DNA of 49,596 nt, taken from contig NZ_AAWS01000065.1 of assembly GCF_000169175.1 (NCBI RefSeq), positions 1-49,596 on the forward strand, given 5' to 3'. This document shows positions 5,533 through 41,331 of this stretch, piece by piece (within the stretch, counting starts at the first letter, position 1; each line of letters begins with the position of its first letter). The notes under the pieces are model-generated. The model was not told the origin of the DNA. It saw only the letters and a program-made list of their open reading frames with translations, and did no database searches. A program made the translations under genes and the position numbers. The DNA comes from Microscilla marina ATCC 23134. GTDB lineage: Bacteria; Bacteroidota; Bacteroidia; Cytophagales; Microscillaceae.

Positions 5533-8172
5533 TTAAAAACTCCAGCTTACCCCTGCATTAATCTGGCGACGAGCGCCTACCAAAATGCCAGAACTTGCGG
5601 TGGGTTCGGGTCGTGAAGGATGAGAATGCAACCTTGAACTAATGTATATATTATCTAAAAGATTTTTGACCGTGGCAAATACCCGCCACTTTTTGTTGAA
5701 AGAATAAGAAGCGCTTAGATTGATAAGGTAATAAGCCGGAATGGGTCCTGCATCTCCCCTAAAACCCAAGTATTTACGTTCGTTGCCGTTGGCATCCAAA
5801 TAAGTAGCATTTTGGACAAAGCCTTCAGTAAGGTTTTCAAAATCGCTGAAAGATTGGCTTACAAATTTAAAATCAGCCCGAAGCGAGAGCCCAAAAGCAA
5901 ATGATTTAGCCAACCCAATATTTAAAGTATGATTTGGAGCATAAGGCATATCATTGCCACTAATGTCTATAGTGTCTTGCACTGCTACCAAGGTGCCAGA
6001 GGCATCAGCGCGATAAGCATCATAACGACTATTCAAGTGAGAAGGCGTCAGGGCATTGACCACCTTTGACTGGAGGTAAGTATAAGCAAAGTTAATATCT
6101 GGCAACAAAGCGCTTAGACGAGATAATTTAATGCTTCCGCCAGCTTCCAATCCGGTACTGCGCACCTTGCCCAAGTTTAAAAATACAGCGCTGCGGGCTG
6201 CGGCTACCATGTCTTCTATGTCCAGCAGAAAACCCGCTACCTCAAAATTACCCCAGGATTTGTTTACCCTAAATCCTAGCTCATAATTCCAACTTTTTTC
6301 GGCAGCCAAGTCAAGCGTGCTACCCGTATTTTGGCTGCCATTGTCTACAAAAGGCAACGAGAAGCTCCCACTTTGCGGAGGAGTAAAGCCTCGGTGTACA
6401 CCACCAAACAAAGTAAAGTCAGTAAGTGCGGCAAAATTAAACCCAGCGCCAGGCAATACTACCACAGTAGTCTTATCATTGTATTTACTTCCCTGTAGCT
6501 TATCTACCACCTCTTGCTCAAAGGCTTCTACCCTTGCCCCCAAACGCATCGAAAAGCGCTCAGTAAATTGAATATTTTGTTGTGCATAAAACGAAAAAGC
6601 AGTCGTGGTAAAAGTACGGCTTTGGGCACGTGGCAGGGCTTCGCGAAACTGAGTAGTGGCACCAGTGGTGCTGTCGGTTACACTCACTGTTTGGTAAAGC
6701 GCTCCTTCGCGGTCGGTTGGACTGCTACCTACTTTAAAACTATCCATAAACCGTTCGTAATGGTAACGTCCCCCAATATTCAGGGTGGCACCTTTGCCAA
6801 ACAGCTGATATTCATAGTTATAGTTTTGCTCAATGCCTGCGGTGGCAAAGGTGCGTAAAATGCCAAAATTGGTTTGCCCATTGCCTACCCTTACCAAGTC
6901 AGTAGCAGAAGTATAATTTTGGGCTTCTACCTCTTGCCCATTAAGGTAAGCGCCTAAGCTTGTGGCACGAATAAACATATCGTCTTCACGCCACCAGTCA
7001 CGGTCAAAGTAACTTGCATACCCTTTAGTTACCGCTACCAGGTGTTTATTAATTTGCACCTCATAAATGGCATCCAACGAAGTACGAAAAACCTTGAACT
7101 CATCATTCTTTTTAGGGTTAAACCTGGGGTTGGTGCGAAAAGAATACTCTGTCAAGCCAGTGTAAGTAGCCTGATTGTCTTCCATATTGAGGTTGTACTT
7201 CAGGTACAGTTTTTTATTTTCTTTGGCAATGATATTGGTCTTTAGAGTCGCGTTTATTTGCTCAAACGTATTATTTTCACGGTAACCATCGCCACGTTTA
7301 TACAACAGTTGCAGTTCGGGGTGTACTTTGTTGTTGCCCCAACCACCTATTTCGGCAAAAGCACTGGCATAGCCATTGGTACCACCCGTGAGCATGACCA
7401 TGCCACCAAAGTCTTTACGGGGGCGTCGGGTAATGTAGTTAATCACTCCCCCCATTGTTTGTGGCCCATATTTAATACTTCCGCTTCCTTTGATTACCTC
7501 TATTTCTTCCAGTCGCTCTACTGGAGGGTTGTAGTACATATTAGGGTAAACATAAGCCGCAGGTTGAATAGGCACTCCGTCTTCGAGCACCAATACACGG
7601 GCACTTCTACGTGGGTTAAGCCCCCTGATACCAATACTTAAGCGTGAGTTACCGAAGCCGTCGTCACCTACACCGTTTACCCCCGGCACATACTCTAGTG
7701 CTTCTTGGGTACCCACTGGGGCAATCATTTGAATATCTTCGGTTTTTAAGCGAGTAGCAGTACCAGGCAGTTTACGATAACTTCCGGGAGCATCGCCTAT
7801 AATTTCTACTGCCGAAAGGGTCAAGTTATTTTCTTTGAGGGATATTTCAAGCGTGGTTTGAGGAGAGAGCGTAGGGGTAATTTGAACCGAGAAGTCGTTA
7901 TAACCTATAAATTTCACTTTGAGTTGCAAGGGTTGTTTTTGAGAGGTTTGGAGCAAAAACAACCCTTGGGCATTGGTAGAAGTGACCCCAATTATCTTCT
8001 CTTTTTCCAGTAAAATCACGGTTGCTCCTACAATCGGTTCACTTTCTTTGGCAGCTTTGACTACCCCTTTTATAAAGTGCCGGGGAGGTGCTTGTGCCCA
8101 GGCAATGGAGTAAGCATTCAACCATAAAAACAGTAAAACAAGCACGAGTTTACGACAGTCACCTTGCATCAT
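5533..8172 (-). CDS. TonB-dependent receptor, FecA-like
   Basis: An 879-aa outer-membrane receptor for TonB-driven uptake. After a signal peptide (about residues 1-27, cleaved near AWAQA) comes a CarboxypepD_reg-like domain (about 32-112; IKGVVKAAKESEPIVGATV). The plug domain is at about 125-240 (ALEYVPGVNGVG, LVLEDGVPIQPAAYVYPN, IEVIKGSGSIKYGPQTMGG). The rest is a 22-strand-type barrel ending in an aromatic residue (AGVSWSF). The plug resembles ferric-citrate type receptors, so a ferric siderophore or citrate complex is the likely ligand, but specificity cannot be read from sequence. It starts 24 bp after a small lipoprotein gene and is probably in one operon with it. Confidence 0.93.
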   Translation of the reverse strand: MMQGDCRKLVLVLLFLWLNAYSIAWAQAPPRHFIKGVVKAAKESEPIVGATVILLEKEKIIGVTSTNAQGLFLLQTSQKQPLQLKVKFIGYNDFSVQITPTLSPQTTLEISLKENNLTLSAVEIIGDAPGSYRKLPGTATRLKTEDIQMIAPVGTQEALEYVPGVNGVGDDGFGNSRLSIGIRGLNPRRSARVLVLEDGVPIQPAAYVYPNMYYNPPVERLEEIEVIKGSGSIKYGPQTMGGVINYITRRPRKDFGGMVMLTGGTNGYASAFAEIGGWGNNKVHPELQLLYKRGDGYRENNTFEQINATLKTNIIAKENKKLYLKYNLNMEDNQATYTGLTEYSFRTNPRFNPKKNDEFKVFRTSLDAIYEVQINKHLVAVTKGYASYFDRDWWREDDMFIRATSLGAYLNGQEVEAQNYTSATDLVRVGNGQTNFGILRTFATAGIEQNYNYEYQLFGKGATLNIGGRYHYERFMDSFKVGSSPTDREGALYQTVSVTDSTTGATTQFREALPRAQSRTFTTTAFSFYAQQNIQFTERFSMRLGARVEAFEQEVVDKLQGSKYNDKTTVVVLPGAGFNFAALTDFTLFGGVHRGFTPPQSGSFSLPFVDNGSQNTGSTLDLAAEKSWNYELGFRVNKSWGNFEVAGFLLDIEDMVAAARSAVFLNLGKVRSTGLEAGGSIKLSRLSALLPDINFAYTYLQSKVVNALTPSHLNSRYDAYRADASGTLVAVQDTIDISGNDMPYAPNHTLNIGLAKSFAFGLSLRADFKFVSQSFSDFENLTEGFVQNATYLDANGNERKYLGFRGDAGPIPAYYLINLSASYSFNKKWRVFATVKNLLDNIYISSRLHSHPSRPEPTASSGILVGARRQINAGVSWSF

Positions 8173-8196
8173 TCGATTATTCTCTTAGTGAGTGAT

Positions 8197-8421
8197 TTAA
8201 AAAGTTTGAGGGTTTGTAGACTGAACATTTAAAAGTGCTACTTTCCTATCTTGTTCCTTGTTTCCATTATTGGTGTCTATTTGGCAATAACTGCCTTGAC
8301 AGTCATCATCTTTTTTTTTGGTGGGTTCTACTATGGGGTCATCTTCACAAGCCGCCAAAGAACCAAGCACAATAGTGAAGACTAGTGCAAGTTTCCCTAT
8401 TTTTATAATTATTTTTTGCAT
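8197..8421 (-). CDS. Small lipoprotein of unknown function
   Basis: A 74-aa protein with a clear lipoprotein signal: a lysine-rich start, a hydrophobic stretch and the lipobox LAAC (Cys near residue 24). The mature peptide is only about 50 residues and highly charged, with a KKKDDDCQGSYCQ segment that adds two Cys. It is the first gene of the minus-strand group and lies 24 bp upstream of the TonB-dependent receptor. It may be an accessory lipoprotein of that receptor; the function is unknown. Confidence 0.7.
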   Translation of the reverse strand: MQKIIIKIGKLALVFTIVLGSLAACEDDPIVEPTKKKDDDCQGSYCQIDTNNGNKEQDRKVALLNVQSTNPQTF

Positions 8422-8518
8422 GACTTATTTGTAATCAGTCTAATTAAGCGCAAAATAGGAGAATATTGATTTTATTTGCAAGAACTATTTTGATTTATTC
8501 TAAATAAAAACTGTAAAA

Positions 8519-10183
8519 TTGAAACCTCAACTTTTGAATGCCCTATCGAAGACATGGAATAGCCCAAAAGCTACTCAAAACGCTACTTTTTGGTGGAGTA
8601 CCCTTACTATTTGCGTGTTTTCCCGCATATTTACAGCAATATATTATATAGAAGATGTAGACAGCCTTCGGTTTGCCCTGGCTATCAAAGATTACAACCT
8701 TGCCACTTATCAGCCTCATTTTCCGGCTTATCCAGTGTATTGTTTCATTGTAAAAATATTTTACGCCATCACTGGGGGCAAACTTGCTTTCTCTTTTACT
8801 GTCACTGGGGGGCTTTCTTTGTTTGGGGTGATTTACTTCATTACCAAGATTTATCAACTGTTGTTTCCAGCAATGAAACAGGCATCTAAAATATGGATTG
8901 TCTTATTGGTTTTGCTCAATCCTTTTCTTTGGCTCATGAGCAATCGTTATATGCCTGACCTGATGGGGTTAACTTTTTTGCTGGCTTGTGTATACTTGTT
9001 TATGAAAGCCTGGCTTGCTTTTGAGGCACCACTGCCTGGGCAAAACGAACACGATCATACCCCAACAGATAAAAACACCCCCAATACCGACGAGAGTTTA
9101 GGTGAGGTGGTAAACCGAATAAAATCGTATAGTCACGAAGAACGCAAACTGCGTTATGCGGCTTATAAACCCTACTATCTATGGGCTTTTTACTTGGTCA
9201 TGGGTTTGCTGATTGGCGTACGCTTGTCTTACTTGCCTTTGCTGTTGGTGCCTGCCATATTACTTGTTTTAAACTTTTTCCGACGTTTGCCTCAATTGTT
9301 GTTTTTTGGTGGGCTAGGGGTAGCGGTTTGGTTCATTCCTTTACTCATAGATACTGGTGGATGGGAAGCCTTGCTGCAAATTGCTCAAAAACACTTAGAC
9401 GGACATTTTAACGAGTGGGGAGGCACAGTCAAAACTGAATCGGGTTATTGGGTGCGAGTGGTGCGTATTTTTCAATATACCTGGGCAGACGGTTTAGGGG
9501 CTTATTGGCTCGATAGGCATTGGTTAGGCATTCCGTTCAGTCTATTGATTTATCTGGGGTTTCGTAATTATAAAAAACTATGGGCAAAATCTACTGACTT
9601 TCCCAAAGATCAAAAAATGCCAAGTGAAATAAGAGAAAGAATTGTATTGAGGTCAATTATTAACCTCAGCATCTTTGCTTACCTTCTATGGATTTTCTTT
9701 TTTCAGAATGTATTATATAAAGCACGCCATATAATGCCTTTTATTCCTTTTATAGTAGCTCGTATAGCTATTGGCATAGGGCAAAACCGAGACCTCAGCG
9801 CAGGAATGGCAGTGTTGATGTTGCCATTGTATATGTTTATTACTTTTACGTTGGTTGGGCAACACCGCAAGCCTACTGCCATTGCGCAGGTAAAAAACTA
9901 TATGGTGAGCCAAGATAAACCACAAAATATATTATACGCGCCCGAACTGGTGGCTTTTTACCTGAAACGGCAACATGACTGGAAGCTTAAGTTTGTGTAT
10001 GCCGATAAGCCCAATAGTGTGCAATTGATCAAGCAGGCAAAAGTCCAGCTGAAGGGTGGCAAGGTATATAGCCTGATTGACTTAAATAAGGACTTGCACC
10101 AGCCAGTAAAAGGCAAGGCTTTTTACCATAACCCTTACGTAAACCGGATGTGGAGCGAACTGAAAGTATACGAATATAAATAG
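8519..10183 (+). CDS. Polytopic membrane protein, GT-C glycosyltransferase-like
   Basis: A 554-aa integral membrane protein with about ten or more hydrophobic segments. Near the N-terminus, in the first periplasmic loop, it has an acidic motif (YIEDVDSLRFALAIKDYN) and then QPHFPAYPVY. This is the pattern of GT-C/GT39-like lipid-linked sugar transferases and related dolichyl-type enzymes. A charged cytoplasmic loop (about 175-215) interrupts the membrane part, and a soluble segment of about 100 residues forms the C-terminus. The only start between the in-frame stop at 8501 and the conserved region is the TTG at 8519; no ATG is available. The donor and acceptor are unknown. It is divergent from the TonB receptor group. 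Confidence 0.7.
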   Translation: MKPQLLNALSKTWNSPKATQNATFWWSTLTICVFSRIFTAIYYIEDVDSLRFALAIKDYNLATYQPHFPAYPVYCFIVKIFYAITGGKLAFSFTVTGGLSLFGVIYFITKIYQLLFPAMKQASKIWIVLLVLLNPFLWLMSNRYMPDLMGLTFLLACVYLFMKAWLAFEAPLPGQNEHDHTPTDKNTPNTDESLGEVVNRIKSYSHEERKLRYAAYKPYYLWAFYLVMGLLIGVRLSYLPLLLVPAILLVLNFFRRLPQLLFFGGLGVAVWFIPLLIDTGGWEALLQIAQKHLDGHFNEWGGTVKTESGYWVRVVRIFQYTWADGLGAYWLDRHWLGIPFSLLIYLGFRNYKKLWAKSTDFPKDQKMPSEIRERIVLRSIINLSIFAYLLWIFFFQNVLYKARHIMPFIPFIVARIAIGIGQNRDLSAGMAVLMLPLYMFITFTLVGQHRKPTAIAQVKNYMVSQDKPQNILYAPELVAFYLKRQHDWKLKFVYADKPNSVQLIKQAKVQLKGGKVYSLIDLNKDLHQPVKGKAFYHNPYVNRMWSELKVYEYK

Positions 10184-14077: not shown

Positions 14078-14932
14078 ATGACGAAAAAAACCGTTCAAGT
14101 TGGCGATATTACTATGGGTAGTAGCCAACTATTTCTCATATCTGGTCCTTGTGTCATCGAAGAAGAAAGCTTGATGATGCGCACCGCTGAACATCTCAAA
14201 AAAGTAGCCGAAAACCTTGATGTCCCCATTATATTTAAATCTTCTTATACCAAAGACAACCGTAGCTCGGTAGATTACTACCACGGCCCTGGCTTAGACG
14301 AAGGTTTGAAAATATTGGAAAAGGTAAAAAAAGAGTTTGGGTTTCCTATACTTTCGGATATTCACCACCCAAGCGAAGCTGCTGCGGCTGGTGAGGTACT
14401 AGACATTTTACAGATTCCGGCATATTTATGTATGCAAACTTCGTTGGTGGTAGAAGCTGCCAAAACAGGTAAAGTGGTAAACCTCAAGCATGGGCAGTTT
14501 TTGGCTCCCGAAAACATGAAGCACCCGGTAAAAAAAGTTCAGTCGGCCGGCAACGACCGGATTGTATTGACCGAACGTGGCTATACTTTTGGCTACAACG
14601 ACCTGGTAGTAGACCCACGCAGTTTTTACCACTTTAACCAAATGGGTTATCCTGTAGTGTTTGATGTTACTCACTCTATTCGCAAATATGGTATTCCAAG
14701 TGCTGACTCTAAAGGAGGGGCTCGTGAATTTTTACCATCTTTGTCAAGATCAGGAGTAGCCGCTGGGGTTGATGGTGTTTTTATAGAAACTCATCCTACC
14801 CCCGAAACTGCCCTGTGTGACGCAGCAAGCCAATTGTGCGTGTACGACATAGAAGAGTTCATGAAGCCATTGCTAGAGATACATGCCATTAACAAAAAAT
14901 ACAACATGTACCCTGTAGCTGAAAATAGCTAA
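14078..14932 (+). CDS. kdsA: 3-deoxy-8-phosphooctulonate synthase (KDO-8-phosphate synthase)
   Basis: KdsA condenses phosphoenolpyruvate with D-arabinose 5-phosphate to KDO-8-phosphate, the first committed step towards the inner-core sugar of lipopolysaccharide. The 284 aa cover the full TIM-barrel: LFLISGPCVIEEE, PIIFKSSYTKDNRSS, GFPILSDIHHPSEA, LKHGQFLAPENM and FDVTHSIRKYG are all present. Cys25 in SGPCVIE takes the position that is Asn in the E. coli enzyme, which in this family marks the metal-dependent class. The stop codon TAA (14930-14932) lies inside the left end of an inserted repeat element. The next gene encodes a transaldolase-CBS fusion that may act in the same pathway. Confidence 0.96.
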   Translation: MTKKTVQVGDITMGSSQLFLISGPCVIEEESLMMRTAEHLKKVAENLDVPIIFKSSYTKDNRSSVDYYHGPGLDEGLKILEKVKKEFGFPILSDIHHPSEAAAAGEVLDILQIPAYLCMQTSLVVEAAKTGKVVNLKHGQFLAPENMKHPVKKVQSAGNDRIVLTERGYTFGYNDLVVDPRSFYHFNQMGYPVVFDVTHSIRKYGIPSADSKGGAREFLPSLSRSGVAAGVDGVFIETHPTPETALCDAASQLCVYDIEEFMKPLLEIHAINKKYNMYPVAENS

Positions 14933-15168
14933 GGAACATGTTCAAAATAAGTGTCGAGATTGAGGGCGTATACTCGAGGCTGGCTGAGGCACTTTTTGCA
15001 GTCGTAGCCATAGCTACGGCGAAAACCGATGGCTGCAGCCCTGCTGTGCCGAGCTCTGCCAAAGGCTAAAAGTAACGAAAGTCAGTAAAGAGGATATGTT
15101 CTAAACCGGACAGTTATTGTTGAGGGCTACGCCCGAAATCCCGTTTACGGGGCGATCACGTTCCTAAG
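14929..15168. mobile_element. 240-bp non-coding repeat element, intron-less copy
   Basis: The element begins CTAAGGAACATGTTC and ends GATCACGTTCCTAAG, imperfect inverted ends with 12 of 15 bases matching. The outer parts are nearly identical to 40294-40363 and 41267-41331. The core (about 15001-15064, from GCAGTCGTAGCC to CCAAAGGCT) is in the opposite orientation to that copy. Short ACTTTT/AAAAGT inverted repeats lie at the core borders, and a CGTAGC-CATA-GCTACG hairpin lies at 15003-15018. The left end overlaps the kdsA stop codon. There is no coding frame. Confidence 0.8.
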
Positions 15169-15221
15169 CGATTATATTTTTAAAAAGTTTGAAAATCAAA
15201 GAAATACATTATTAATTTCAC

Positions 15222-16256
15222 ATGGAACTATATTTAGACTCGGTCGATTTCAAAGAAATAGAAGAAGCCTTTGACATGGGTTTCTTAACAGGTCTTACTA
15301 CCACACCTACTTTTATGCATCGTCATGGTATTACTGATATTGACGGAGCTATAGTAAAACTAGCTGGTATGGTGGAGCCTGGTATTTTGCAGGTAGAAGC
15401 ACTAGGCGACACTGCTGAAGAGATTTTGGCTGAAGCAAAAAGATTGCTTGCGTTGGGCTTAGACATAGAGAAAACTGTTTTTAAGATTCCAGTATCTAAT
15501 GTAGGCGTAAAAGCTTGTAAATTATTGCGTGACCACGGAATGATGGTAAACGTTCACCTGGTATACACGCTTAACCAAGCATATATGGCTATGCAGGCAG
15601 GCGCTACTTATGTATGTCCGTTGGTGGGTCGTTTGCAAGACCAGGGGCACGACGCGTTGACTTTGGTACAAAGCTGTGTGGATGCGGTAAACTATTATGG
15701 TTATGACACCAAAGTAATGTTTTCTTCAGTACGCCACGCCGAGCATGTACGCACGGCTATTATGTCTGGTGTGCATACCATTACTGCTCCATGGAAAGTA
15801 ATGAAAACATTGACCAGCAACAATTTTACTACAGTAGGTACCGATCAGTTTGTAGAGCATACCCGCTTGATGACTGAAAACGTGAAGGATGTAATGCAAG
15901 ACTTCAACCCTGTAGTAAAAGATGATGAAACTATCTTCGATGCATTGAGCAAAATGACTGAGTCTGGTTTGGGTGCAGTGTCTATTGTAAATGGCACTGG
16001 GGAGCTAAAGGGCATCTTTACCGATGGCGACTTGCGTCGTAACCTGAAAGAAAAAGGCAAGGCTTTCTTAGACAACAAAATGGCTGATTGCGTGAGCAGT
16101 GCCAACCCTATCACCATTACTCAAGAAGCGCGTTTGTACGATGCAGTGGCTTTGTTTAAAGAGAAAGAAATAGATACCATCATTGTAATGGCTAACAACA
16201 AACCTGTGGGTATGTTAGACATTCAGGATTTTGTAAAACAAAATTTAGTAGGGTAA
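15222..16256 (+). CDS. Transaldolase/F6P-aldolase-like domain fused to a KdsD-type CBS pair
   Basis: A 344-aa two-part protein. Residues 1-215 follow the short transaldolase / fructose-6-phosphate aldolase fold (MELYLDSVDF start; TVFKIPVSNVG with the Schiff-base Lys88; ATYVCPLVGRLQDQG). Compared with E. coli FSA as I recall it, Asp6 and the catalytic Lys are kept. Asn28 of TTNPS is Thr (TTTPT), the Thr109 region reads VHLVY, and Tyr131 is Leu, so substrate choice is probably altered. Residues 225-344 form two CBS motifs; GIFTDGDLRRNL is the signature seen in the CBS tail of arabinose-5-phosphate isomerases (KdsD/KpsF/GutQ). It lies directly after kdsA, separated by an inserted repeat. A role in making or regulating arabinose 5-phosphate is an inference. 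An intrinsic terminator follows. Confidence 0.85.
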   Translation: MELYLDSVDFKEIEEAFDMGFLTGLTTTPTFMHRHGITDIDGAIVKLAGMVEPGILQVEALGDTAEEILAEAKRLLALGLDIEKTVFKIPVSNVGVKACKLLRDHGMMVNVHLVYTLNQAYMAMQAGATYVCPLVGRLQDQGHDALTLVQSCVDAVNYYGYDTKVMFSSVRHAEHVRTAIMSGVHTITAPWKVMKTLTSNNFTTVGTDQFVEHTRLMTENVKDVMQDFNPVVKDDETIFDALSKMTESGLGAVSIVNGTGELKGIFTDGDLRRNLKEKGKAFLDNKMADCVSSANPITITQEARLYDAVALFKEKEIDTIIVMANNKPVGMLDIQDFVKQNLVG

Positions 16257-16282: not shown

Positions 16283-16316
16283 CCACCCTATTGGTTATCA
16301 ATAGGGTGGTTTTTTT
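16283..16316 (+). terminator. Intrinsic terminator after the transaldolase-CBS gene
   Basis: An 11-bp perfect stem, CCACCCTATTG with CAATAGGGTGG (16283-16293 and 16299-16309), has a 5-nt loop and is followed by seven T. It starts 27 bp after the stop codon. Confidence 0.92.
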
Positions 16317-40293: not shown

Positions 40294-41331
40294 CTAAGGA
40301 ACATGTTCAAAATAAGTGTCGAGATTGAGGGCGTATACTCGAGGCTGGCTGAGGCACTTTTAGCCTTTGGCAGAGCTCAGCGCAGCAAAGCTGCAGCTAT
40401 CGGGTGTGCCCTGAAACAAAGCACAACAAGCTTTGTATGCTATAACTAAGATGGTGGTAGACCCACCAAAGGCGATTTACAGGAATAGCCTTTAAACCAC
40501 TCTACGGTGCTATGACAGTAATGTTTTGGTATTGAACGGCTAGAGAAAAGGCTCCGCTGGTACGGAGTCAGGTGTGAATAAGAGAGATGAACGCAAGTGA
40601 ACCAATGAAGAAGTGTCGAGAACAGCTACTTGTTGTCAAAACCAGACTTATCCGATAAAGTTTGGGACAAAGCATAGAGCGTACCCTGTCAAGTGTCTAT
40701 GTGGCAACCGTCATTAAGTTGGCATGACTCTTATTTAGGCTTAGTTATGGAACAGGGGAAGCCCTCTATGATCATTAAGGGAAAGTACAAGTAGCGATCC
40801 TACAAGGCGAATACTGAGATGATAGAGGGTGGCGGATGAACTCGTATTAGTGTAGAAGCTTCTGTAATGGAAGTGGAGCGAAGGGGTTCAGTTATACAGT
40901 TTTCAAGTTTTTAACAACTTAATAATATGAGGAGGATTAAAAGCGACAAGACAAAGTCATTACCATTTTATCACTGGAATACAGGAGTTAAATTATGATG
41001 ATTTGTATAACAAGAGCCGTGTGATGGGAGACTATCACGCACGGTTCTGTGAGAGATTTGGGGTGAAAATCCCCTTATCTACTCGACTTTGCGGGCAAGG
41101 CAACATCCGGGGGATGTTGAGCCAGACCGTGGGACGGTACTACGGACAATAAAAGCTCATAGTCCCGGCGGAACTGCCGGGGTAACGAAAGTCAGTAAAG
41201 AGAACCGCAGAACGAAGTTCAAGCTCTGCGAAGCTAATATGTTCTAAACCGGACAGCTTCAGATTTCTTATCGGGGTTATTGTTGAGGGCTACGCCCGAA
41301 ATCCCGTTTACGGGGCGATCACGTTCCTAAG
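40294..41331. mobile_element. Second copy of the CTAAGGAAC repeat element, core inverted and carrying a group II intron
   Basis: The left 70 bp and right 65 bp are nearly identical to the element at 14929-15168, including both ends (CTAAGGAACATGTTC and GATCACGTTCCTAAG). Inside, the core segment AGCCTTTGGCAGAGCTC (40363 onward) is the reverse complement of the other copy's core. It is interrupted at 40404 by a group II intron. An extra GC-rich stretch (41088-41190) and two small insertions (near 41208 and 41261) are unique to this copy. It lies between recQ and a lipoprotein gene. Confidence 0.85.
40404..41087 (+). mobile_element. Group II intron without an encoded maturase (ribozyme only)
   Basis: Domain V is unmistakable at 41014-41047: 34 nt starting GAGCCGT, with a GTGATGG-GAGA-CTATCAC stem capped by a GNRA loop, and ending ACGGTTC. 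Domain VI follows at 41048-41087 (TTTGGGG against CCCCTT, with an unpaired A candidate in CTTATCT). The 3' end is placed at CTACTCGAC (AY end), and the 5' end at GTGTGCC (40404; GUGYG consensus). At about 684 bp there is no room for a reverse transcriptase, and domain IV shows only a short frame. It must splice or move with proteins supplied in trans, if it is active. The exact ends are to the nearest few bases. Confidence 0.85.

Follow-up and report, generated by a model that had tools for sequence, protein, structure and literature searches.

The stretch analysed here, called the window, is the 49,596 nucleotides of contig NZ_AAWS01000065.1 of Microscilla marina ATCC 23134 (assembly GCF_000169175.1), and the gene of interest is the one directly after kdsA. 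Its product consists of a barrel of the transaldolase/fructose-6-phosphate aldolase (FSA) type fused to a C-terminal CBS pair. An earlier note, made from the letters of the DNA alone, had described such a fusion with the Schiff-base lysine Lys88; both open reading frames are on the plus strand, and the Pfam domains confirm the description. TAL_FSA was matched at residues 3-233 of the 344-residue protein (E 2.9e-35, above cut-off), followed by two CBS stretches (E 6.8e-19). These were the only Pfam matches, and the isomerase (SIS) domain, PF01380, was not found in the protein, which also agrees with the note. KdsA, the 3-deoxy-D-manno-octulosonate (KDO) 8-phosphate (KDO8P) synthase, needs arabinose 5-phosphate (A5P), which is normally made by KdsD from ribulose 5-phosphate. 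The comparisons reported here suggest that the fusion is likely to be a non-orthologous source of A5P which replaces KdsD. The features of the locus are listed in Table 1.

Table 1. Features of the fusion gene and its surroundings in the window (aa, amino acids; ORF, open reading frame)
Feature	Position	Strand	Basis
Fusion of transaldolase/FSA barrel and CBS pair, 344 aa; proposed A5P-forming enzyme in the place of KdsD	15222..16256	+	
Transaldolase/FSA-type barrel, residues 1-215	15222..15866	+	Pfam, alignment, structure model, fold search
CBS pair, residues 216-344; among solved structures closest to the A5P isomerase CBS pairs 4o9k and 3k2v	15867..16253	+	
Thr28 codon (Asn in FSA and transaldolases)	15303..15305	+	alignments
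Lys88 codon, Schiff-base lysine of the family	15483..15485	+	alignments
His112 codon, invariant in 21/21 and 46/46 aligned fusions; Thr in four stand-alone enzymes	15555..15557	+	
Leu134 codon; Phe in four stand-alone enzymes, Tyr131 proton shuttle in E. coli FSA	15621..15623	+	
kdsA, KDO8P synthase, 284 aa, divergent KDNRSS/CMQT/KHGQF motifs	14078..14932	+	ORF, NCBIfam, alignment
Inserted stretch of ~230 bp between kdsA and the fusion	14933..15164		comparison with one close relative
Terminator-like hairpin, 12 pairs with T tail, shortly downstream of the fusion gene	16283..16309	+	

The structure model of the whole fusion has a predicted local distance difference test score (pLDDT) of 90.8. 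Its barrel resembles the FSA/TalC-type transaldolases, with template modelling scores (TM-scores) of 0.83-0.91 on the target among the matches listed. The sequence identity between the fusion and the stand-alone relatives is 31-37%. All FSA models of NCBIfam scored the barrel under their cut-offs; with 158.4 bits against 245.95 for TIGR00875, it falls outside the fructose-6-phosphate aldolase equivalog. The matches of the KpsF/KdsD models, at 64.8 and 52.7 bits far under their cut-offs, were limited to the CBS region, and the match to TIGR00393 was confined to positions 154-267 (64.8 vs 203.7 bits). The nearest named record is from an uncultured Microscilla (99% identity). The fusion is not a chance join, since it is present at full length in 28 of 57 related genomes, and relatives of the query are encoded in at least 547 of at least 587 genome stretches matched by pattern. 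The 80 best of these stretches were fetched.

The CBS pair belongs to the KdsD type by both profile and fold, in line with the signature that the note had called typical of A5P isomerases. Among the CBS-bearing models of NCBIfam, KpsF and KdsD scored best with this part of the fusion. When 16 CBS pairs of fusions were combined into a profile, 4o9k and 3k2v, the CBS pairs of A5P isomerases, ranked first in the PDB, and these were again the best fold matches of the modelled pair (pLDDT 86.2). The mean identity to 15 KdsD CBS pairs is 29.7%. If the ligand in 4o9k is the cytidine monophosphate (CMP) derivative CMP-KDO, end-product feedback would be exerted through the CBS pair. It seems evenly balanced whether CMP-KDO itself is the ligand of the fusion's pair.

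A normal kdsD elsewhere in the genome had been regarded in the note as evidence against its proposal. No SIS-type KdsD was found by the PF01380 search of the M. marina assembly, which is 98% complete. The five matching stretches belong to a GlmS-like frame (two), MurQ, PGI/PMI and GmhA (one each); the GlmS assignment was made by eye, as two SIS stretches share a frame of 653 aa, and the other three proteins were named by family scan. The SIS_2 search of this genome gave no additional stretches, and the TIGR00393 matches in it span the CBS part of the model only. A hidden KdsD was considered and rejected, as all the SIS and SIS_2 matches were assigned to these proteins.

Across genomes, the fusion and KdsD occur almost exclusively of each other. 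The 57 relatives include 28 with the full-length fusion, 19 with KdsD over cut-off, none with both and 10 with neither. All 28 fusion-bearing relatives show a kdsA match (as fragments in G010 and G041), and the 47 relatives with kdsA are divided into 28 with the fusion, 18 with KdsD and one with neither (G013, 79% complete). Four families (f5, f9, f11 and f18) hold members of both kinds. A sample of 296 genomes of the phylum was taken with a requested completeness of at least 95%, and KdsD and kdsA were called in it at E ≤ 1e-40 and E ≤ 1e-60. The fusion was present in 5 genomes, kdsA in 216 and KdsD in 210, of which 207 exceeded the curated cut-off; the fusion and KdsD were together in none, and KdsD occurred without kdsA in 2 of the 296. 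The 216 kdsA genomes comprise 208 with KdsD, 5 with the fusion and 3 with neither (G078, G250 and G298), and the fusion covers 5 of the 8 which lack KdsD. An assembly gap was weighed as the cause of the missing KdsD in these three genomes; the kdsA of G250 begins at a distance of 710 bases from the end of a contig, and a tblastn search with the KdsD of G042 gave no match in L173 or L174.

Family f11 was covered more densely (81 genomes). KdsD was over its cut-off in 71 of them, and the fusion was found in all 10 others (G024 and nine fetched regions). The larger CBS frames of two KdsD genomes of this family (G438 and G452) were fetched, and no fusion was found there. The Fisher values for exclusion are 4e-12 (relatives), 1.5e-8 (phylum) and 5e-13 (f11); relatedness is ignored in them, the sets overlap, and the f11 value presumes from the matches listed that the 71 KdsD genomes are free of the fusion. 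In addition, 50 genomes were chosen for the fusion, being 50 of the 79 fetched loci first requested; kdsA was found in 48 and KdsD in 3. The sets of 57, 296, 81 and 50 overlap (G000, G024 and G042 are shared among sets), and several of the 50 (e.g. L083, L084 and L093) look identical to members of the 57 by their kdsA scores. KdsD is thus missing from 28/28 fusion-bearing relatives, 5/5 fusion genomes of the phylum sample and 47/50 genomes selected for the fusion.

The position beside kdsA is also conserved. kdsA lies directly upstream of the fusion on the same strand in 40 of the 80 fetched loci (gaps 3-313 bp), and a KdsC-like HAD protein lies directly downstream in 51, with gaps below 60 bp in 42 of these 51. 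Both neighbours occur together in 34 of 80 loci; loci at contig edges were kept, three without an upstream gene and one without a downstream gene. Of the 28 fusion-bearing relatives, 14 have kdsA on the same strand and no more than ~1 kb away. The lack of conserved linkage, which the note had named as grounds for rejection, was therefore not observed. The fusion adjoins kdsA/kdsC and is counted as a member of the KDO biosynthesis operon; together with kdsA it often lies inside a kdsB/kdsC/kdsA operon. A KdsB cluster is present in 11 of 80 loci (its scanned member scored 221 bits against a cut-off of 155). The gene order is kdsB-kdsA-fusion-kdsC in L117, L118 and L128, which are labelled Desulfobacteraceae or Deltaproteobacteria; two other records with such labels, L121 and L150, lie in genomes without a kdsA match. 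In G143 the order, named by motif, is kdnA/B-like, kdsA, fusion, kdsC and kdsB. The names of the neighbour clusters rest on one or two members per cluster, and those of the G143 genes, RecQ and ManC were given by motif or by eye.

The KdsA partner of the fusion forms a separate clade. The KdsA of the window scored 333 bits against the KDO8P-synthase cut-off of 314. In the KdsA tree, the proteins of fusion genomes are one side of a branch with 100/100 support (50 vs 21 rows). Ten loci were added to this tree and 13 were dropped (duplicates, the kdsA of the window and of its sister, and the KDNRSS-type L025, L026 and L027); the window's own KdsA was aligned but not placed in it. The clade shows the changes KANR to KDNR, CRQT to CMQT and KKGQF to KHGQF, at positions which we take to be A5P contacts of KdsA. 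The motif list covers 74 loci (52 KDNR and 22 KANR), which were picked by pattern, contain duplicates and miss some loci. The KDNRSS clade, including the kdsA of the window, is still called KDO8P synthase by the reference models despite its changed active-site motifs.

Genome G042, an assembly of one contig, has a KDNRSS-type KdsA together with KdsD, and no fusion was found in it. Its operon holds kdnA/B-like genes, kdsA, a kdsC-like gene and kdsB; KdsD is elsewhere, beside a recQ-like gene (by eye). The KdsA of G042 is 88% identical to those of the fusion genomes G024 and G427 and falls with them in one 100/100 group. Since KdsD makes A5P and is paired here with the KDNRSS type, this KdsA presumably uses A5P, from which it would follow that the fusion presumably makes A5P. 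KdsD and the fusion probably both feed A5P to the KDNRSS-type KdsA. In G370 and G357, KdsD and a canonical KdsA coexist with the fusion and a KDNRSS-type KdsA, which indicates that the fusion goes with one specific clade of KdsA. The KdsA proteins of L112, L117, L118 and L128, all from records labelled Desulfobacteraceae or Deltaproteobacteria, form one supported group inside this clade, which suggests transfer of the cassette between bacteria.

Comparison with the FSA/TalC-type transaldolases (TIGR00875 and PF00923; 3r8r of B. subtilis and 1vpx of T. maritima) showed that the fusion shares with them the fold as well as Asp6, Glu59, Lys88, Asn110 and the phosphate-side residues Arg137, Ser169 and Arg171; whereas the CBS pair and Thr28, His112, Cys132 and Leu134 are its own. 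All 46 aligned fusions have Lys88 and the phosphate-side residues unchanged. The swaps are on the donor side: Asn28 to Thr, Thr109 to His112, Ser to Cys132 and Tyr131/Phe to Leu134. The residue changes listed in the note were therefore confirmed, with the leucine numbered 134 and the changed residue of the Thr109 region being His112. Cys132 is replaced by Thr in 5 of 102 aligned fusions. This set of 102 (129 fusion loci, 101 distinct plus the window) was picked by a motif containing TTTPT and VN.HL, and Thr28 and His112 are conserved in it by selection. The alignment of 21 rows was drawn from a search with the whole protein in which the His was no criterion, and that of 46 rows from a LTTTPTFM scan, in which the conservation of His112 is unbiased and that of Thr28 biased.

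The catalytic roles in E. coli FSA are described in PMC13259622: Lys85 is the covalent catalyst, proton transfer falls mainly to Tyr131, the dihydroxyacetone donor is stabilised by Asn28 and Ala129, and the catalytic water is held by Gln59 and Thr109 together with Tyr131. The Tyr131/Asn28/Thr109 set of fructose-6-phosphate aldolase is absent from the fusion, which has Leu134, Thr28 and His112 instead. The Asn, Thr, Ser and Phe of the dihydroxyacetone site of transaldolase are all replaced as well (four stand-alone sequences were compared); the Asn28 and Ser positions are presumably the contacts to the C1 hydroxyl. A stand-alone FSA-type transaldolase is encoded on another contig of the M. marina genome, so the fusion is not the sole member of its family there. 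A plain transaldolase or fructose-6-phosphate aldolase as the main role of the fusion was rejected on account of this stand-alone member, the score under cut-off and the replaced dihydroxyacetone-site residues.

In the proposed mechanism, the transaldolase-family barrel would supply A5P to KdsA, and the KdsD-type CBS pair would throttle the barrel by sensing a downstream product, probably CMP-KDO. That the product is A5P is very likely, and the chemistry at Lys88 probably involves an aldimine, which would be formed with C1 of an aldopentose 5-phosphate. C1-C5 of A5P would then overlay C2-C6 of fructose 6-phosphate, with equal stereocentres and an equal distance to the phosphate site, and the phosphate would be held by the kept Arg137, Ser169 and Arg171. 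The residues for the C1 hydroxymethyl of a ketose (Asn28 and Ser) are swapped to Thr28 and Cys132. With Leu134 in place of the proton shuttle (Tyr131/Phe), His112 and Glu59 might handle the proton transfer. The likeliest net reaction would be the interconversion of ribose 5-phosphate and A5P, a C2 epimerisation via an enaminol or an in-site retro-aldol/aldol; the second choice would be the formation of A5P from glycolaldehyde and glyceraldehyde 3-phosphate. Ribose 5-phosphate is the more available partner and is tentatively named as the substrate; glycolaldehyde with glyceraldehyde 3-phosphate is the chemically best-precedented alternative. To our knowledge, no natural gene has been assigned to a ribose-5-phosphate 2-epimerase or to a dedicated A5P aldolase.

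Some precedents were found in the literature. According to PMC9947464, E. coli FsaA forms A5P from glycolaldehyde and glyceraldehyde 3-phosphate, there in a synthetic pathway, and the TalB variant F178Y yields A5P and ribose 5-phosphate. PMC7895386 states that A5P inhibits a transaldolase, and a title which it cites (Light and Anderson 2014) describes the inhibition as covalent. A5P corresponds to fructose 6-phosphate minus C1; this relation, the FsaA and TalB reports and the cited title are the reasons for preferring an aldimine which involves C1 of the aldopentose 5-phosphate. No prior account of the fusion as an A5P source was found in the open-access (PMC) papers searched; KdsD and arabinose are unmentioned in the main text of PMC3087551. 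The non-canonical entry to KDO synthesis which the note had proposed is supported by the near-exclusive occurrence with KdsD and by the linkage to kdsA. The fuller picture is slightly favoured: a second class of A5P enzyme with a Schiff-base transaldolase fold (a ribose-5-phosphate 2-epimerase or an A5P aldolase), under feedback by CMP-KDO and carried as a mobile cassette with its own KdsA.

Two other chemistries would leave the fusion as the A5P source in the place of KdsD. A true aldol synthesis, in which glycolaldehyde bound as the Lys88 enamine would add to glyceraldehyde 3-phosphate to give A5P, fits the stereochemistry and the phosphate site, and an aldehyde donor would be in keeping with the lost C1-hydroxymethyl pocket. 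However, glycolaldehyde is presumably not a main metabolite, and no gene which makes it was recognised beside the fusion, where most neighbour clusters are unannotated. Although E. coli FsaA has the corresponding activity (PMC9947464), this route is rather unlikely. The barrel might also act as a ketol isomerase of ribulose 5-phosphate and A5P, the KdsD reaction, through Lys88, Glu59 and His112 in the manner of triose-phosphate isomerase, with no Schiff base. Its net role would equal that of KdsD in the replacement pattern, and the new invariant His112 stands beside Lys and Glu. However, with C2 of ribulose 5-phosphate at Lys88, the phosphate would fall one carbon short of the conserved site, and the invariant Schiff-base lysine would serve no need. 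Ribulose 5-phosphate isomerisation fits the geometry less well, and this reaction is unlikely.

Several observations weigh against A5P supply by the fusion. Its kdsA lies on a different contig in 14 of the 28 fusion-bearing relatives, and two metagenome-assembled genomes among the 50 fusion genomes (G368 and G388) gave no kdsA match. KdsD is present alongside the fusion in 3 of these 50 (G357, G369 and G370); G369 has KdsD and yet a single kdsA, of the KDNRSS type. The fusion is rare in the phylum sample (5/296), and many genomes in the samples are metagenome-assembled. For the 71 KdsD genomes of f11, the absence of the fusion is read from the CBS matches listed (down to ~47 bits). The changes of KdsA at the presumed A5P contacts could mean another substrate, and so could the tracking of one KdsA clade by the fusion. 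The fusion would then make a different sugar phosphate, and the KDNRSS-type KdsA would form an ulosonate like KDO but distinct from it. The separate clade on its 100/100 branch and the changed motifs are in accord with this, as is the fact that the KDNRSS-type KdsA accompanies the fusion even beside KdsD and a canonical KdsA. It is nevertheless quite improbable, as the same KdsA subtype is paired with KdsD in G042, where no fusion was found, KdsB is over its cut-off inside the L117 operon, and all the f11 genomes lacking KdsD carry the fusion; the argument from the swap rests mainly on G042 alone. The fusion might finally be a regulator or a catabolic aldolase which removes A5P made by another enzyme. 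CBS pairs often sense, and A5P is reported to inhibit a transaldolase (PMC7895386); but the absence of KdsD from 47/50 fusion genomes and 28/28 fusion-bearing relatives would be unexplained, and the catalytic lysine and phosphate-side residues are invariant in 46/46, which makes such a role very improbable.

The fusion, as the probable A5P source, can be compared with several known enzymes. With the KdsD/GutQ/KpsF family (TIGR00393) it shares the C-terminal CBS type and the place in the pathway beside KdsA, KdsB and KdsC; whereas it is without a SIS domain, and its catalytic TIM barrel is unrelated. E. coli FsaA belongs to the same family and has the same lysine; whereas it has Asn28, Thr109 and Tyr131. 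FsaA is presumably without CBS domains. AraD (L-ribulose-5-phosphate 4-epimerase) is a precedent for the epimerisation of a pentose phosphate by retro-aldol/aldol within an aldolase family; it is a metal-dependent class II enzyme which acts on a different carbon and is unrelated to the fusion. The supply of A5P is the first step to KDO, a core sugar of Gram-negative lipopolysaccharide. If the proposal is true, A5P is made by an enzyme unrelated to KdsD in some lineages of Bacteroidota and in a few bacteria outside that phylum, to the extent of 28/57 relatives, 5/296 genomes of the phylum sample and at least 547 query relatives among the stretches matched by pattern. If confirmed, it would provide a second route, so far undescribed, to an essential component of lipopolysaccharide.

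Other genes near the fusion or kdsA were also noted. Two members of the HAD cluster had KdsC scores of 45 and 53 bits against a cut-off of 208, and are called KdsC-like without certification. KdsC-like HAD proteins with a DWDGVF motif are encoded in L092 (2069-2779) and L117 (7032-7700), far under the KdsC cut-off, and that of L092 has no Pfam match; the DWDGVF proteins are possibly a second KDO8P phosphatase family. DegT aminotransferases are present in 14 of 80 loci and Fe-alcohol dehydrogenases in 11, which we liken to the KdnA/KdnB pair of 8-amino-KDO (Kdo8N) synthesis. The two lie near kdsA in L168 (G042; 6763-9103), L178 (8558-10874), L103, L109, L121, L124 and others. Their position beside the KDNRSS-type kdsA suggests that 8-amino-KDO synthesis also takes place in Bacteroidota. 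KdsD adjoins a recQ-like gene (a name given by eye), and not kdsA, in four genomes (L165, L166, L167 and L169).

PADLOC gave no match, and the promoter scan of the region was no better than shuffles. Terminator-like sites in the region numbered 2, against 1.9 expected from shuffles. The ~230-bp insert between kdsA and the fusion is missing from the one close relative compared (L007, which is the same contig as L082). Imperfect inverted repeats lie near the ends of the insert, and pieces related to it are present at 40298-41323 of the window (ends approximate). From these repeats and pieces, the insert looks like a small mobile element.

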